Of a stretch of DNA of 35,019 bases, positions 6,653 to 25,756 are shown piece after piece. This DNA comes from a virus. Within the stretch, counting starts at the first letter, position 1. Each line of letters starts with the position of its first letter. Below the pieces are notes generated by a model. It was given only the letters and a program-made list of their open reading frames with translations. It was not told where the DNA came from and searched no databases. Made by a program: the position numbers and the translations under genes. Location: positions 1-35,019 of the IMG/VR virus record IMGVR_UViG_3300020205_004484. The stretch is one strand, 5' to 3'.

Positions 6653-6982
6653 CTATTTGTTTTTTGCTAATTTAGCAAGTGCATTACGAAGATTTGCCCC
6701 ATCCATGGTATTGATAATTTCTTGACGTCGCATCTCGTACTGAACTCTTTTTCTTGTTTTTTCAATAACTCCAGGGCGACGATTCTGAGGCGCAACTCCA
6801 CCCCATATACCAAAGTCGTACTCTTTTAATTCAACGGCGTAGTCGAGACATTCAATACGTACGGGACAATCGGCACATACTTCTTTGGCGGTGGCGACGC
6901 CAACATCATGCCCTTCGCCAAAAAACAAAGAAGTGTCAAGGCCCTTGCAAGATGCTTTATTGAACCATTTGGGTGATTTCAT
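6653..6982 (-). CDS. WhiB-family transcriptional regulator (first of three)
   Basis: 109 residues from ATG6982, chosen because GAGGAG lies ten bases upstream; a TTG at 7000 would place the start inside that site. The four iron-sulfur ligands are C12, C36, C39 and C45 (CADCPVRIEC), followed by the beta-turn GIWGG at 58-62 and a basic C-terminus, so all core WhiB features are present. WhiB proteins carry a 4Fe-4S cluster and bind the primary sigma factor region 4. Phage WhiBs such as that of TM4 can interfere with host WhiB function. The role here is inferred. The 31 bases around its start are duplicated at 9002-9032. Confidence 0.93.
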   Translation of the reverse strand: MKSPKWFNKASCKGLDTSLFFGEGHDVGVATAKEVCADCPVRIECLDYAVELKEYDFGIWGGVAPQNRRPGVIEKTRKRVQYEMRRQEIINTMDGANLRNALAKLAKNK

Positions 6983-7006
6983 TACTATTATTCTCCTCAA
7001 TTATTA
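6976..7006. repeat. 31-bp direct repeat copy A (covers whiB ribosome-binding site and start)
   Basis: Matches 9002-9032 in the same orientation at 29 of 31 positions, with differences at 6994 and 6999. This copy contains the Shine-Dalgarno site and first codons of the whiB gene at 6653-6982. The two copies bracket the secreted-protein gene at 7013-8932. Confidence 0.8.
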
Positions 7007-9292: not shown

Positions 9293-11221
9293 TTATTTTA
9301 TTGGGCAAGCACCAGTAGCACAATCATCCAATTCAACCAAACCATCAAATGCTGGACGATGCAGTGGGATAGAGAAATCAATCTTGTTCAACGACTTCTC
9401 ATAGGCTTCTTTGGTGCATTCTTCATAAGGAGGTAGGGGGAAGTTATGGTCTGCATGAAGTAAGAAAGATACGGACTTCACGGAATTATCATAATTCTTT
9501 GAAAGCCAGTCTTTGATTTCCGAAAGTTCTTCCTTGCGATAATAGACAGTCACCGAAACAGCATTATCTGCCCATTCGGTCTGCATCTTCTTCACCCACT
9601 CCAATTGTGCTACGGCAGTCATACTGCTCGCCAATACAGAGCCCTCAGGTGACTCGCAGGGGAACTCAACAACGAAGCGAGTGTGGTCTTCGCGCCCATC
9701 AATCCCGACGTCGTAGCAGACCTTGTAACCACGCTTACGGCATGCATCGACTAATGGGTCAGATGAACCAAAACGGACACGACGAATATAGTATGGCGCA
9801 AATGCTGGGTGAATACCAGGGGTCACGCCAGGAAGTAATGAAAGTGTCCCTGATGGCTGGACGGTTGTCAGGCGAACCGAAACAGGTAATCCATTTTCTT
9901 TTGAATACTGAGCATCGAGTGCCTCTAGGTAATTGTAGGCGTCCGACAACCACGAAACCTGGTCCTCTGAGCACTGCAGGATTCCCGTAATGGACTGACC
10001 TAAACGAGAATTCTTTTGGACAATCTTGGTGGTTTTCTCATAAGGGTAATTCATGCGGGTAATTTGCTTTTGAGTCTTGTAGAGCAAATACGAAATGTCC
10101 TTAAATTGCTCGGCAGATTTGATATTCGGAAGAAAAATCGTTGACAGATTGCATGATTCGCCATCACCTAGAGCAATTTCAGCGCAAGGATTGAATCCTT
10201 CGATTGTAGGGTCTGGCTTTAGTTGTCCTACACGACCGAACTTGCGGGCAAGTTTACGATTAACTAATCCGTAAGGTTCGCCGGTACCGTCATAACCCTT
10301 CCATAGTTCTGCAGCGATTTCATCGTAACCATCTGCGTAGATACTGTTGTTGCTGTTTGCTCTCCAAGCGGGGACATTACCTGAACCCCAGTTCTTTGCA
10401 CGAAGGAATAAAACATCGTCGGGGTCGCCAATGGCAATCTGTGCTGAACGGCGCGACGAACCAGAAACAACAATACGACCAATGATGTTGCAGATGTCCA
10501 GAACATCAATAGAGCGGAGTTTCTTGCCTACACGATTTTCAAGAACTTTACAAATGTCTACGATGCCATCAATGAGTGCGCCTGGACCCGATGCGGTTCC
10601 ACCAAACTTCTTCAACGGAGCGCCGTATTCACGAACAAGAATCGTTGAGTATGTGAATGAGCGACCTGTTTCAAAGTACGACTTCAATACTGAGTGGAGT
10701 AGGCGACGCCATCCTTGACGACTGTCGGGAACGATGATATCTGCGTCATTTGTTCGTTCGTGAGTTACGGTGACTCCACTTTTAACTTTTGGCAAATCAT
10801 GAATCTTTGAGCGTTCAACCGAGAAGCCGACTCCACCACCAAGCATGAGGTAATCAAAAAGAAGTTCAAAGTCTTCAATCTTCTCAATATTGGTGAAATA
10901 ACAGTTGTTTAGACTCGTGCCTGAGAACTCTTTTGTCAACGTTGTCCCAAGTTGCCACAACGAGCGACCCGAGAAAGAGCAACGAAGGTTGAACATGTGG
11001 TCAAAAAGGCGTTCTGCTTCTTCCTGCGTGTACGGAACCCCAATATCGATAGCGCCGTTGATTACTCGCTGAAGTGTGTCTGTCCAAGTTTCGCTGTCTC
11101 CGTTTTCTTTCTTGCGACTGTATGTGCGCAGAAAAACAATTTCCCCCATTCCGTTAAATCCCCAAGGAGGTGTCTGTGAGGAATAGGTGTGTACAAAATC
11201 GTCGGTAATCATGGCGCTCAT
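9293..11221 (-). CDS. nrdJ: adenosylcobalamin-dependent (class II) ribonucleoside-triphosphate reductase, monomeric type
   Basis: 642 residues from ATG11221, which has a purine-rich AGAAAGAGA upstream; the frame extends to a TTG at 11278. It should reduce ribonucleotides to deoxyribonucleotides with coenzyme B12 as radical source. Visible active-site residues: NNCYF (C107), NPCAEI (N344, C346 thiyl cysteine, E348) and C357 in ESC, 11 residues on as in Lactobacillus RTPR (C408/C419). The C-terminal CATGAC pair (C634, C639) is the usual re-reducing dithiol. GGGVGFSVE is also family-typical. It is shorter than the roughly 740-residue Lactobacillus enzyme. Class II needs no oxygen and no separate small subunit, but depends on host or environmental cobalamin. 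No intein is visible. Confidence 0.93.
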   Translation of the reverse strand: MSAMITDDFVHTYSSQTPPWGFNGMGEIVFLRTYSRKKENGDSETWTDTLQRVINGAIDIGVPYTQEEAERLFDHMFNLRCSFSGRSLWQLGTTLTKEFSGTSLNNCYFTNIEKIEDFELLFDYLMLGGGVGFSVERSKIHDLPKVKSGVTVTHERTNDADIIVPDSRQGWRRLLHSVLKSYFETGRSFTYSTILVREYGAPLKKFGGTASGPGALIDGIVDICKVLENRVGKKLRSIDVLDICNIIGRIVVSGSSRRSAQIAIGDPDDVLFLRAKNWGSGNVPAWRANSNNSIYADGYDEIAAELWKGYDGTGEPYGLVNRKLARKFGRVGQLKPDPTIEGFNPCAEIALGDGESCNLSTIFLPNIKSAEQFKDISYLLYKTQKQITRMNYPYEKTTKIVQKNSRLGQSITGILQCSEDQVSWLSDAYNYLEALDAQYSKENGLPVSVRLTTVQPSGTLSLLPGVTPGIHPAFAPYYIRRVRFGSSDPLVDACRKRGYKVCYDVGIDGREDHTRFVVEFPCESPEGSVLASSMTAVAQLEWVKKMQTEWADNAVSVTVYYRKEELSEIKDWLSKNYDNSVKSVSFLLHADHNFPLPPYEECTKEAYEKSLNKIDFSIPLHRPAFDGLVELDDCATGACPIK

Positions 11222-11291
11222 TGCGTTTCTCTTTCTGGTTTTAGTTGAACTAGGAAAAACATTGTAGATGAATTTCAAATAAAGAAAGTGT

Positions 11292-11615: not shown

Positions 11616-11687
11616 TACCCCCGGGTGGAGTTGAACCACCTTAGCGACCTTATAAGAGTCGAGTCCTAACCGGTAGACGACGAGGGC
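11616..11687 (-). tRNA. tRNA-Ile (anticodon UAU, reads AUA)
   Basis: The minus strand folds as a full cloverleaf. Acceptor GCCCTCG pairs with CGGGGGT (two G-U pairs) and the discriminator is A. D-stem GTCT/GGAC has loop ACCGGTTA. Anticodon stem CGACT/GGTCG has loop CTTATAA, giving anticodon TAT after T33. The variable region is CTAA, and T-stem GGTGG/CCACC has loop TTCAACT. CCA is not encoded. The gene sits between an unknown gene and the zinc-ribbon gene. A UAU tRNA-Ile would help translate AUA codons, which high-GC actinobacterial hosts use rarely and this phage uses freely. Confidence 0.9.
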
Positions 11688-14708: not shown

Positions 14709-15333
14709 TGTTTATTTCCTCCGTCTTTAACTCTATCGCAGGAATTACCTCGGCATCGATAATTTCCCCAGTTTGAGTTAATAGCCGATTAACAATTTCT
14801 GATGGCAAAATACCAGAGCGTCCCATAAGTTCAAGAAGGGCACGCGCCTCCGCTTCAGGATTAAATGTTTCTAGTGCTGCAGCCGATTGAATACCGGCAA
14901 GAGTTGCTTTGATGGTCTCAGGTTGAGTGACTTCCATTTGAACGTTGATATTATTCTGGTCCATGCCAAGAAGTTTTGAACGCCTGTCCATGATTGCCAA
15001 TACCTGCTGAATAGCCTTCAGGTCAGGCTCAATTTGAACCTCAGTGCCATCATCGGTTCGTATCTTCCTATGTTGCGTCATGGGCCATATAGCCGCCTGT
15101 AGGTTGTCTAGGCGCTCCAGTTCCATTCTGAGCACCTCAGGATAGGCCATGAGGGTCTCTTTGTTAAGTTTTTGGAGTTGACGCTCTACTGCTTTTTGCA
15201 CAACAGAAATTGAAACACCAAAACGTTTTGATATTTCGCTTACAGAAATACCTGCTTGGCGCATTTTGAAAATACGAGCATCGCGTTCAGCCAAGAACTC
15301 TTTAGTCATTACGCTAGGTGTGTTTTCATTCAT
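14701..15333 (-). CDS. helix-turn-helix protein, small-terminase-subunit-like, 210 aa
   Basis: Starts in an ATGA overlap with the primase-helicase stop. Residues about 9-50 form a helix-turn-helix (MRQAGISVSEISKRFGVSIS). The middle contains ERLDNLQAAIWP and QVLAIMDRRSKLLGMD, a helical pattern common in phage small terminase subunits and related DNA-binding proteins. The C-terminus is acidic. Terminase small subunits recognise pac or cos DNA, but no large terminase is in the window, so this may instead be a regulator. DNA binding is well supported; the terminase assignment is tentative. Confidence 0.65.
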   Translation of the reverse strand: MNENTPSVMTKEFLAERDARIFKMRQAGISVSEISKRFGVSISVVQKAVERQLQKLNKETLMAYPEVLRMELERLDNLQAAIWPMTQHRKIRTDDGTEVQIEPDLKAIQQVLAIMDRRSKLLGMDQNNINVQMEVTQPETIKATLAGIQSAAALETFNPEAEARALLELMGRSGILPSEIVNRLLTQTGEIIDAEVIPAIELKTEEINNE

Positions 15334-18161
15334 GGCTTAATCACCTTAAATTCCATCGGCTCAAACGGCCATTTTTTGCCGCGTCGCATTTTCGTAGGCC
15401 ATTGCCTCTCGTCGCGTTCGCCACGAAAATGTTTTACGTCATATACATAATCCCCCACAGCCATGGGGTCTGGCTGCAACGATATGCCAAATTCTGGCCA
15501 ACGTGACCAAACGGCCGAACCAAACGGACGTAAGTTGCGTGAAGTCTGAGACTCCCCAAGAGGAGCATGATGCTCCAACCATAGGGCGCAATCATAGACA
15601 ATACGCAAGGTGTCTAGGTATTTGACTACTTCAATCGTAACCGCTTCCGATGTCTTGTTCCCTGGGTCAAGAAAAGATTTATAAAGGGGGCCCAAAATAA
15701 GCAAGTCAGGTTGTGCTTGCTCAATATACATTTCAAGAAGAAGCCTGTCAGATGGGGACAGTAAATTCAATCCATCTGGCTTAATGACCAAGTGGGCATG
15801 ACAATTCATTGAATAATTCATTGAAGCAGCAGCGCCCATGATGCTTCGTGACGAGCGACGGATGATGCTCTCGGGGTTTTCTAGGTCAATAGTCAGCGTC
15901 CGAATTGGTCTCATTTTACTAAAAGTGAAAGGCTGTACGCCCCATGCCGTCGTAATAGCAACCTGACGAGCAAGCATCGTGTTGTGTGTTGGGATATATG
16001 CGCCACCTATCAGATAGGTATTGTCGGGCCCATCAACGGATATGCATCTCATTGGGACTGGAGTTATTGGCTCTACTGAAACTATGTAGCGATACAAGGA
16101 GCGTGGAGTGGCAAGTTTCTTCGGGAGTCTCTCTTCTTTACGCTTTAGTCTGCAAACTGGGATATCAGTCTTGAAGGAAATTCTGTACCTCGTACCAGTG
16201 ACTCGTCCATATAGTTTTGAATCAGATTCACGCATCGTCGCTTTAATGCCAAGCGTCTGTATGAGGTCCAAGAATCCTTTTGCTAGTTCTTGACGATTCA
16301 CAGAAAACTCGCATAGGCCGCTGGTGGCGACATACCCATCAGTATCCATGAGACCTTGCACCAAGGCTAGTCGCTGTTCGTAAGATGCTCGTGAATAGAT
16401 GGGGGGAATGTGTTTGTTCCCGTGCAGTCCGTGTTCTTTTAGTTGAGATTGCAGCCCGAGTATTCCGTAGATGTTCTTGGTTGATTCTCGTTTGCGGACA
16501 ACGTATCCGTCGTTACGAATTTCCTCAAGTATTTCATTATCCTCAGAACAAATGGAACCGTTTCTGGTCGTTCCGTCGCCCAACCATGCTCCAAGTGTGT
16601 ATGGAGGGATGGGTAGATTTGCTTCGGGGAGATTGAGGGGTTTGGTCGTTGGGATGGCGTGATTGAGCGCTTTCGTCTGTCTGCCAGAGATGAGCGTGTC
16701 TCGGATTTCTGCCGTAGTACGAACTTTGCCAACCTTGCGTTTTTCGCGTTCGTTCAAAGTCTCCGTATACCACTGATGTTCGGCGTCGGCGTCAATGTAG
16801 TTGCCATCAGAGAAACTCACTCTGTATGCGTCGGGGTTTGGTTCTATTGGACTGACATAAGTGACACTGACTGGATTACCAAAACGGTCAATGACTATAT
16901 CCCCAACGCTTATTTCGCCAAGAGTTGTCCAGCCCGAAGGAGTAGGTATCACGCTATCTATTGTAGCACGCTTGCCCACCCCCTCTGCAGCAACAACGAT
17001 AACTCGCTCTCTGCGCTCTAATAAGCCGGGTATTAGCCAATCATAAGTATCATCATCTGATTCTCCAACAAAATCTTGCCAATTAACAAGACGACCCTCC
17101 GTAACGAGAGAAGTAGATAGTGCGGATGATACGAGCAATGAAGCACGATTAATGAGTGCTGTCGGAGTCAGTTTGGTATTTTCTAATAAATCACGCAGTT
17201 TTGAAATTGCTACTTCAGTTTGTGTTTGAGGTATTTCCTCAAATTCTTCTTGATTACTTTCATCATTGGCAGAATCGTCGACGGACGCATCAGTCAACGG
17301 CAAATTGTCTGAATCATTAGGCTCAAAAGGTACTAATTCAGAAGTGGAACCACCCGCAGTGATGAAATCAGTAATATCTTTCCCTGTCGGACAAATCCAG
17401 CCCTGAACATCACAGCCAGCACCACGCAGTGCTTCCATCACTAGAACGGCATGTTTGCGACCTGGCTCATCATTGTCAGCAATGACGTCAACCGTCGCAC
17501 CAGCAAGGGCGTCTGTGTGGATTTGCAGCCACTTGCCAGCGCCACCGGGCATCGTCGTAGCGCAGGCTTCTAAAGCAATGAGGGTATTGACATCCTTTTC
17601 ACCTTCAACGACAAAAATTGATTCGTTTTTGCTTTTCGCTGCCATAATCTGAGGCAACTTGTACAGAACTTTTGGCGTATCTCCAAGAGAATAGGTGTAG
17701 CCACCATTGCCGTCTGGTTTACGTTGACGGAAAGTTTTCTTACCATCCTCGTCAACGTAACGAACCTTTTGAAACAGTAATTCCCCTGATTCAGAAACAT
17801 AATCGTAGGTGGCGACTACTTGAAGTTTTACTTTTGAAACTTTTGGCACAGAAACTTTTTTCTCAAAAGGCCTTGGCTCGTAAGAATCAAAAGAAGTGTT
17901 TCTGTCCTTTGGAGGAAGCAAGTCTTTCATAAGAAGCCCTACCGCTTGCACAATTTCTGGTACAGAACATCCGCCCCCACGATGACAATGAAGAAGCAGT
18001 GCTCCATCCTGTTTTTCGTGAATAGATAATGATGGATTGCTGTCATCGTTTCGACATGGGCAACGTGCATCCCACCCATTGGCAGTTTTAACTATGCCGT
18101 CAAGACGTGAGAGAAGTTCACTCGTATGAGTTTCCACGTTCTGGATACCCCACAATCTCAT
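15330..18161 (-). CDS. bifunctional primase-helicase (CHC2-like zinc, TOPRIM, AAA_25/RepA-like ATPase) split by an in-frame intein
   Basis: 943 residues as translated. An N-terminal zinc module uses C34, C36, C59 and C65. The TOPRIM fold shows E186 in VVEGEKD and D229/D231 in ADNDEPG, as in primases. The RecA-like ATPase has Walker A AAEGVGK (391-397) continuing as T728-M-L-A-R after the intein, and Walker B-like PDLLILGPL (818-826) with EHHAP later. After removal of intein residues 398-727 the enzyme would be about 613 residues. It should unwind DNA and prime at the phage replication fork. It overlaps the upstream whiB by 44 bases and the downstream HTH gene by ATGA. The start codon has no clear Shine-Dalgarno site, and translation may be coupled. 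Confidence 0.9.
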   Translation of the reverse strand: MRLWGIQNVETHTSELLSRLDGIVKTANGWDARCPCRNDDSNPSLSIHEKQDGALLLHCHRGGGCSVPEIVQAVGLLMKDLLPPKDRNTSFDSYEPRPFEKKVSVPKVSKVKLQVVATYDYVSESGELLFQKVRYVDEDGKKTFRQRKPDGNGGYTYSLGDTPKVLYKLPQIMAAKSKNESIFVVEGEKDVNTLIALEACATTMPGGAGKWLQIHTDALAGATVDVIADNDEPGRKHAVLVMEALRGAGCDVQGWICPTGKDITDFITAGGSTSELVPFEPNDSDNLPLTDASVDDSANDESNQEEFEEIPQTQTEVAISKLRDLLENTKLTPTALINRASLLVSSALSTSLVTEGRLVNWQDFVGESDDDTYDWLIPGLLERRERVIVVAAEGVGKRATIDSVIPTPSGWTTLGEISVGDIVIDRFGNPVSVTYVSPIEPNPDAYRVSFSDGNYIDADAEHQWYTETLNEREKRKVGKVRTTAEIRDTLISGRQTKALNHAIPTTKPLNLPEANLPIPPYTLGAWLGDGTTRNGSICSEDNEILEEIRNDGYVVRKRESTKNIYGILGLQSQLKEHGLHGNKHIPPIYSRASYEQRLALVQGLMDTDGYVATSGLCEFSVNRQELAKGFLDLIQTLGIKATMRESDSKLYGRVTGTRYRISFKTDIPVCRLKRKEERLPKKLATPRSLYRYIVSVEPITPVPMRCISVDGPDNTYLIGGAYIPTHNTMLARQVAITTAWGVQPFTFSKMRPIRTLTIDLENPESIIRRSSRSIMGAAASMNYSMNCHAHLVIKPDGLNLLSPSDRLLLEMYIEQAQPDLLILGPLYKSFLDPGNKTSEAVTIEVVKYLDTLRIVYDCALWLEHHAPLGESQTSRNLRPFGSAVWSRWPEFGISLQPDPMAVGDYVYDVKHFRGERDERQWPTKMRRGKKWPFEPMEFKVIKP
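15981..16970 (-). other. intein with LAGLIDADG homing endonuclease, class-3-like (WCT motif), inserted in Walker A
   Basis: Residues 398-727 of the primase-helicase (330 aa). The splice boundaries read GVGK/RATIDS at the N-side and PTHN/TML at the C-side, so the extein GVGK-T is restored. Block B is AEHQW (H462, W464), block F is MRCISVDGPDN (C706), and block G is PTHN (T725, H726, N727) with Thr at +1. W464, C706 and T725 together match the WCT triad of class 3 inteins, which use the block F Cys as first nucleophile. Position 1 is Arg (CGT). The endonuclease motifs are TLGAWLGDGT (about 522-531) and GLMDTDGYV (about 603-611). Such enzymes cut intein-less alleles to spread the element. Confidence 0.88.
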
Positions 18162-18441
18162 GAAGGGTTGGCCGCAAAATTCTTAATCCCAAATTCCTAC
18201 GCATGCGTTCTCGCGCTCCCTCTGTCTCCCCACCCCAAATACCAAACGGTTCCCATTCGATTGCGTAATTGAGGCATTCAATTCGCTTGTCACATAACTT
18301 GCAAATTCCTACCGCCAATTTTATTTGTTCACGTGTCTCACTACGTTGACGTGGCGTTGAATGATTCGAAAGATTCGGATACCACCATTCACTTGGTTTG
18401 CCCTTGCATGCACCGTCAAGCGGTGGGTGTGCGCTATTCAT
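18118..18441 (-). CDS. WhiB-family transcriptional regulator (second of three)
   Basis: 107 residues. Cluster ligands are C12, C47, C50 and C56 (CKLCDKRIEC), followed by GIWGG at 67-71 and an Arg-rich stretch (ARERMRRNLGLR). It shares little with the other two WhiBs outside these motifs. The insert between the first and second Cys is longer and carries a WWYPN motif. It lies between the zinc protein and the primase-helicase, overlapping the latter by 44 bases, so it is probably expressed together with the replication genes. It may bind the host sigma factor to redirect transcription; this is inference from the family. Confidence 0.92.
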   Translation of the reverse strand: MNSAHPPLDGACKGKPSEWWYPNLSNHSTPRQRSETREQIKLAVGICKLCDKRIECLNYAIEWEPFGIWGGETEGARERMRRNLGLRILRPTLHEIVGYPERGNSYE

Positions 18442-24822: not shown

Positions 24823-25128
24823 CTACCCTCCCCACATTTGGGCTAAGGTGGGTCTAAGAGGTGCGATATTGCGTCGACGTTGTTCCGCTGCCAACTGACG
24901 ACTAGTAAGCCCAGCCCACACTCCATGCATGTCTACGGTAGGGAATTCTAGAGCATATTCGAGACAGGCAGGCCTTACTGGACAATCTGCGCAGAGTGCT
25001 CTAGCGGCAACAATGTATGTGATGTCTTTATGTTCCTTGGGAAACATGAGATACGTTTGACCTCTACAGGCAGCATTGTCCATCCATGCATAATCTGATT
25101 TATTTTCTACTGGTATTTCTGGTTTCAT
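24823..25128 (-). CDS. WhiB-family transcriptional regulator (third of three)
   Basis: 101 residues from ATG25128, supported by AGGAAA nine bases upstream; the longer frame to 25221 lies inside the Ntn-hydrolase gene. Ligands C21, C46, C49 and C55 (CADCPVRPAC), then GVWAG (69-73), a variant of the usual GVWGG, and an Arg-rich C-terminus (EQRRRNIAPLRPT). It overlaps the Ntn-hydrolase gene by 29 bases and so is probably co-transcribed with it and the phosphoesterase. The C-terminus (RPTLAQMWGG) differs from the other two copies. Confidence 0.92.
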   Translation of the reverse strand: MKPEIPVENKSDYAWMDNAACRGQTYLMFPKEHKDITYIVAARALCADCPVRPACLEYALEFPTVDMHGVWAGLTSRQLAAEQRRRNIAPLRPTLAQMWGG

Positions 25129-25756
25129 TTCTGGATTTCCTACTTTGTGTTGAATTGGCGTCTTGAGAAACGACATTGTATGGGTGTCCGCTATGAGGGT
25201 CGAACCTAGAGGCTGTCGCAAGAGCCTTCATAACGTAACGTTTAGCCTGAGAGATTGTGGGCGTCTTAGGGCAAAGAATACTGAGAGCCCCTATTGCGTA
25301 TGGTGCCCCAGAACCGATTGCGTAGACACCGCTCGAATCTGTTGCCCAGGCGTAATCGTTATCAATTTGATATATCGTCCTATTGACAGATATCAATAAA
25401 ACGGAACCATGCTCGGCCACATGCTGAGATGAATCTTTAGAAGGCGCTGAATAGCCATTAACGTCAAAGCATTCTCTAAGTGCGGGGATGAATTTAACAG
25501 TTATGAATTCATCAAGTTTCTTCCCTTTCATTCCTGCTGGAGGTTGAGGGGGAGTGAGGGCGTGGCTAACTAAATTAATTGCCCTAACATCACCTGCAAC
25601 ACCTATGAGGTAGGGTCCAACATTGGCAATTTTGGACATACTTAAAGCAAGTGTTTGAATATTTGTTGAAAAACCATCTCCATCTACGCTGAGAATACGG
25701 CTATCAGCGCACATGACAGAAAATCCGTCACCCTGAATGCCTACGATGGTTGTCAT
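25100..25756 (-). CDS. HslV/proteasome-beta-like Ntn hydrolase, 218 aa
   Basis: Read from ATG25756, four bases after the phosphoesterase stop. After Met removal the N-terminus is TTIVGIQGDG: Thr1 nucleophile, Asp17 in CADSR, and Lys in MSKIANVG (mature residue 41, aligned with Lys33 after an eight-residue insert). LIGVAGD and GSGAPYAIGAL are also beta-subunit-like. No propeptide is present, as in HslV. It should be a Thr protease or related amidohydrolase, probably oligomeric. No HslU/ARC-type unfoldase is in the window, so it may use a host partner or act alone. The C-terminal 20 residues are basic and polar. Confidence 0.78.
   Translation of the reverse strand: MTTIVGIQGDGFSVMCADSRILSVDGDGFSTNIQTLALSMSKIANVGPYLIGVAGDVRAINLVSHALTPPQPPAGMKGKKLDEFITVKFIPALRECFDVNGYSAPSKDSSQHVAEHGSVLLISVNRTIYQIDNDYAWATDSSGVYAIGSGAPYAIGALSILCPKTPTISQAKRYVMKALATASRFDPHSGHPYNVVSQDANSTQSRKSRNETRNTSRK

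Follow-up and report, generated by a model that had tools for sequence, protein, structure and literature searches.

An arginine-led class 3 intein in the Walker A loop of a phage primase-helicase

Introduction

Can an intein whose first residue is arginine be a working intein, and what keeps the arginine there? The question arises from a viral contig (IMG/VR record IMGVR_UViG_3300020205_004484, 35,019 nucleotides, analyzed whole and called the window below) in which a first-pass annotation described a class 3-type intein that interrupts the Walker A loop of a primase-helicase and carries Arg at position 1. That annotation considered the residue unusual, and suggested that it would either extend the range of residues tolerated at this position or mark a TGT to CGT mutation that might impair splicing.

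Class 3 inteins with Arg1 are natural material on what residue 1 does once the nucleophile is another residue. In the class 3 AceL NrdHF intein, replacing Ala1 with Gly abolished splicing (PMC7891396), which gives residue 1 a structural role and means that it cannot be swapped at will; yet a large, charged Arg is fixed in the intein studied here.

Results

The gene encodes a 943-residue precursor with a Toprim-like region (residues 183-267, scoring under the curated cut-off) ahead of a RecA-like AAA_25 ATPase that contains the intein (Table 1), and the best matches of its exteins are Arthrobacter phage genes annotated as "DNA primase/helicase." A terminase identity, proposed by PHROG matches (phrog_36964, phrog_15 and phrog_19299, precursor residues 385-733), was rejected because those matches sit on the intein region and reflect a shared intein rather than the extein. 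This is an annotation trap of its own: class 3 inteins are built into the PHROG "terminase large subunit" profiles, which intein-bearing helicases therefore match strongly.

The intein translates to RATIDSVIPTPSGW...DADAEHQW...PVPMRCISVD...AYIPTHN, with Thr as the next residue, and splits GVGK|T in the Walker A loop. Two intein-free orthologs on IMG/VR contigs, L022 and L023, are uninterrupted at this place and read VVAAEGVGKTMLARQ, that is, GVGKTMLARQ. The insertion therefore lies exactly between Lys and Thr, as had been proposed, and by this empty site, together with the structural superposition described below, Arg is certainly residue 1 of the intein. The +1 position is filled by the Walker A threonine, so an unspliced helicase would be unable to bind ATP normally, which agrees with the earlier view that an active helicase requires splicing.

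Table 1. Positions in the window of the primase-helicase gene, its intein and the motifs discussed in the text.
Feature	Position	Strand	Basis or remark
Primase-helicase gene, 943-aa precursor	15330..18161	-	Toprim-like part, then RecA-like AAA_25 ATPase with intein inside
N-extein, 397 aa	16971..18161	-	C-terminal EGVGK of Walker A; GVGK at 16971-16982
Class 3 intein, 330 aa	15981..16970	-	Translation, alignments, empty site, structure match
C-extein, 216 aa	15333..15980	-	First residue Thr+1, the Walker A threonine
24-nt tract at intein 5' end, CGTGCTnnAnTAnnTAGnnnnnTA	16947..16970	-	Nucleotide-level conservation in the intein family
Arg1 codon CGT	16968..16970	-	
Block B His65 (B:10)	16776..16778	-	Invariant in alignments
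Block B Trp67 (B:12, W of WCT)	16770..16772	-	Invariant in alignments
LAGLIDADG motif 1, YTLGAWLGDG, residues 124-133	16572..16601	-	
LAGLIDADG motif 2, RLALVQGLMDTDG, residues 200-212	16335..16373	-	
LAGLIDADG_3 domain (Pfam PF14528), residues 198-264	16179..16379	-	E 5e-8
Block F Cys309 (F:4, C of WCT), predicted initiating nucleophile	16044..16046	-	Invariant
Block G Thr328 (G:5, T of WCT)	15987..15989	-	T in 181/182
C-terminal Asn330, predicted to cyclize	15981..15983	-	Invariant

The signature residues are those of class 3. There is no Cys, Ser or Thr nucleophile at residue 1, which excludes class 1, and the triad of B:12 Trp, F:4 Cys and G:5 Thr is complete (W67, C309 and T328), accompanied by B:10 His (H65), a C-terminal Asn (N330) and Thr at +1. 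All five intein residues are invariant when aligned with 14 further class 3 inteins from phages; across 182 distinct inteins the same holds for H65, W67, C309 and N330, and the one exception at T328 is a Ser. The WCT triad, Thr+1 and LAGLIDADG endonuclease reported in the first-pass annotation were thus borne out, the endonuclease showing both motifs (LGAWLGDG and LVQGLMDTDG) with the invariant acidic residues, including D132 and D211. The intein is a further member of class 3.

Structural comparison leads to the same assignment. The top match in the PDB is a proven class 3 intein, Msm DnaB-1 of Mycobacterium smegmatis (6bs8; phmmer E 3e-20), in which both splicing halves align with the endonuclease lying between them. 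An AlphaFold2 model of this stretch of the precursor superimposes on the class 3 structures 6bs8 and 6riy with Z 21 and 1.3-1.7 Å over 125-130 residues, which points to a HINT fold, and the alignment begins at model residue 71 (Arg1), which falls onto residue 1 of 6bs8, 6rix and 6riy. The model also matches PI-SceI (Z 26). The N-extein beside Arg1 is of low confidence in the model, and the Arg1 side chain gives no usable view.

Among known inteins, Msm DnaB-1 occupies the same position in the Walker A loop of a RecA-type helicase (native flanks FGVGK/STLGL; PMC5222942), shares the H65/W67 numbering and the WCT triad, and has the same fold from first residue to last (1.3 Å over 125 residues), but it is a mini-intein with Ser+1, whereas the GVGK|T intein has an endonuclease, Thr+1 and Arg1. 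Relatives at the DnaB site in our census carry Ala1. Of the named relatives, the nearest (45% identity across 328 residues) is the intein of a DnaB-like helicase of Brevibacterium phage Rousseau (OV696622); its site, GAGK|T, likewise lies in a homologous helicase, although its residue 1 is Ala and its host protein matches precursor residues 356-942 alone, without the primase half. Rhodobacter phage RcKickapoo carries in its terminase another class 3 intein, with Arg1 and a P-loop site (GGGK|R...THN|T) and with near-identical matches in the terminases of RcDurkin, RcMenchie and RcTiptonus; however, it lies in a different host protein, is 38% identical, uses the Arg codon CGG and stands apart from the GVGK|T family on the tree. 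MchDnaB1 and AceL NrdHF share the block F Cys mechanism and the catalytic Cys-His-Thr arrangement (PMC7664689, PMC7891396), but AceL NrdHF is a split intein with Ala1.

To place Arg1 among class 3 inteins, loci were gathered from phage records, IMG/VR and GTDB genomes (198 loci at that stage) and residue 1 was read by profile alignment. The 177 distinct inteins had Ala in 127, Gly in 11, Leu in 10, Arg in 9, Gln in 6, Pro in 5, Met in 4 and other residues in 5. After a targeted scan with a DNA pattern, Arg1 stood at 12 and Ala at 129 of 185 distinct inteins, figures that are not population frequencies, since sampling followed resemblance to the query and Arg1 itself was the criterion for the last rows. 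Outside the GVGK|T family, Arg1 occurs in the RcKickapoo intein (L026) and in L060, to which the targeted scan added L218 (partial), L227 (PESGK|R...THN|T) and a 148-residue mini-intein without an endonuclease (L215/L222; SRQVGK|R...TRN|S). Arg1 is thus found at at least four insertion sites, including the terminases of named Rhodobacter phages; the best tree has five changes of residue-1 state, of which supported branches require at least two. The description of Arg1 as unusual holds in that it is a minority residue and fails in that it recurs; nor does it add to the residues known from nature, given that it already occurs at these different sites.

A terminase-like site, SRQxGK|[ST]T, supplies a natural series in which residue 1 is Ala, Leu or Arg at one location (Arg1 in L060; L199, L108, L109 and L117 compared). 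The L215/L222 mini-intein (around 3301 in L215), at the terminase-like site SRQVGK|S, has Arg in place of the penultimate His, and farther downstream the same open reading frame holds a second, LAGLIDADG-like stretch. Across the census, the strongest covariation partner of residue 1 is F:2, two residues ahead of the catalytic Cys: Met is found there in 26/32 inteins with Arg, Gln, Leu or Met at residue 1 versus 5/150 others. On the tree, this coupling of residue 1 to Met did not reach significance, the independent pairs being too few. A coupling of Arg1 to an acidic B:5 was likewise discarded; it held in 9/10 Arg1 rows at one stage (the GVGK|T family and L026) but is absent in L060, L215 and L227.

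The intein belongs to a known class; the novel part is the tract formed by the first 24 nucleotides of the intein. The tract CGTGCTnnAnTAnnTAGnnnnnTA is also present at positions 3001-3024 of L001 and at the equivalent place in L002-L013. Over eight distinct family members, six of the third positions in the first eight intein codons are invariant against a background of 2.8% (binomial 1.3e-8 for this window, 331 windows), and codons for the same residue are identical in 93% of cases, whereas codon use predicts 27% and the remaining intein codons give 41-44% (six gapless members). First and second positions do vary (codon 3 is ACA, GCA or ATA; codon 5 is GAT, AGT or ACT), so the tract is neither recently homogenized nor explained by conservation of the protein. 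It begins precisely at the intein boundary, and the flanking extein codons show no such nucleotide constraint. A general nucleotide constraint at the 5' end of class 3 inteins was sought in six other class 3 groups and not found, and the motif is absent elsewhere in the 1.08 Mb of loci. On this codon evidence, protein function leaves the conservation of the tract, the Arg1 codon included, without explanation.

Discussion

The tract bears directly on why residue 1 is Arg. Tentatively, it may be a nucleic-acid element that travels with the intein family, in which case Arg1-Ala2 would be read out from the element rather than chosen by splicing, and splicing would merely tolerate the Arg that the element mainly fixes. 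The third-position invariance, the codon identity and the limits of the tract at the intein boundary and at the family speak for such an element, which is compatible with a functional intein; against it, inteins without the tract also have Arg1, encoded by other codons (CGA, CGG). We regard this explanation of Arg1 as possible, though less likely than not.

The tract could act as a hairpin at the splice-junction codons, as an internal promoter from which a leaderless endonuclease mRNA would begin at the RTG of codon 7, or as a protein-binding site. In the candidate hairpin, nucleotides 1-7 face 15-21 with 96% of cells paired, and the folds beat shuffled sequences (z ≤ -2) in 6/8 members (in L005 through a shifted pairing), but compatible changes are one-sided only, with no double compensations, and the hairpin is weak in the GVGK|T intein itself and in L001. 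An outer RNA stem joining the GVG codons to the PTP codons was accounted for by the amino acids. As for a promoter, an extended -10-like TGnTAnnnT lies seven nucleotides ahead of an in-frame GTG or ATG at codon 7, an arrangement that resembles actinobacterial leaderless genes. Six of the eight members fit, and the key A of the -10-like site is missing in two; the RTG is present in seven, and both other frames are closed by invariant stops within the tract (TAR at nucleotides 11-13, TAG at 15-17). A promoter scan of 15300-18300 gave no excess over shuffles and did not list the tract, and Rfam found only a tRNA over the whole window. We know of no intein with its own 5' regulatory signal, and the tract asks whether inteins carry nucleic-acid signals of their own within coding sequence.

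Whatever fixes the Arg, we consider it highly probable that the class 3 intein set between the Walker A Lys and Thr is functional and mobile and carries a LAGLIDADG homing endonuclease, and very likely that it splices with Arg1. Following the established class 3 scheme (PMC5222942, PMC7664689), Cys309 of block F would attack the bond between Lys(-1) and Arg1, the acyl group of the N-extein would pass from Cys309 to Thr+1, Asn330 would cyclize, and an O-N shift would seal GVGK-T, leaving the helicase as GVGK-TMLARQ. The endonuclease, which we infer cleaves DNA, would carry the intein to alleles of this gene that lack it.

Distances between loci suggest that such spread has taken place. The exteins are 89% (N) and 92% (C) identical in amino acids to those of the intein-free L022, whereas relative to L001 the intein is 87% identical and the exteins just 51% (N) and 63% (C). 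Synonymous divergence follows the same pattern: against L001 the intein stands at about 0.9 while the exteins are near saturation, and the exteins differ from those of L022 by about 0.85. This mismatch argues for a mobile intein; these comparisons give intein and host gene separate histories, with horizontal movement between phages. Codons no more than 25 from the insertion are 76% identical to L022, those farther out 87% (Fisher p 0.0016), a dip that co-conversion on homing would leave; no clear matching rise toward any one donor was seen.

A decaying or splicing-dead copy, in a phage that lives without this helicase, is improbable. Dead class 3 inteins do exist, as demonstrated for the Arthrobacter Arth_1007 intein (PMC3196547), but here every catalytic residue is present, the open reading frame is intact across the relatives to the extent of their contigs, and the insertion lies within the Walker A of a replication gene of which both halves are retained. 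Furthermore, dN/dS of the intein is 0.06-0.09 for the closest pairs (dS around 1-2), which indicates strong purifying selection.

That a recent mutation in a class 1-like intein produced Arg1 and impaired splicing can safely be set aside, for although TGT (Cys) to CGT is a single transition and Arg1 is a minority residue among class 3 inteins, the comparison with inteins at the same site that had been called for found CGT encoding Arg1 in 13/13 IMG/VR relatives (64-87% intein identity), most of them near saturation at synonymous sites between one another, the WCT residues are intact, residue 1 of class 3 is usually Ala and not Cys, Cys1 is absent from all same-site relatives (182 inteins), and the single apparent Cys1, in L096, seems to come from the alignment slipping by one residue. 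As far as the aligned relatives can tell, Arg1 is a tolerated, lineage-fixed, uncommon yet recurrent residue, tolerated because residue 1 of a class 3 intein is not the nucleophile.

Elsewhere in the window are three WhiB-like genes (6653-7000, 18118-18441 and 24823-25221, minus strand), which indicate an actinobacterial host. The phage also encodes a B12-dependent (class II) ribonucleotide reductase (9293-11278, minus strand), adjoined by a tRNA gene (11616-11687).
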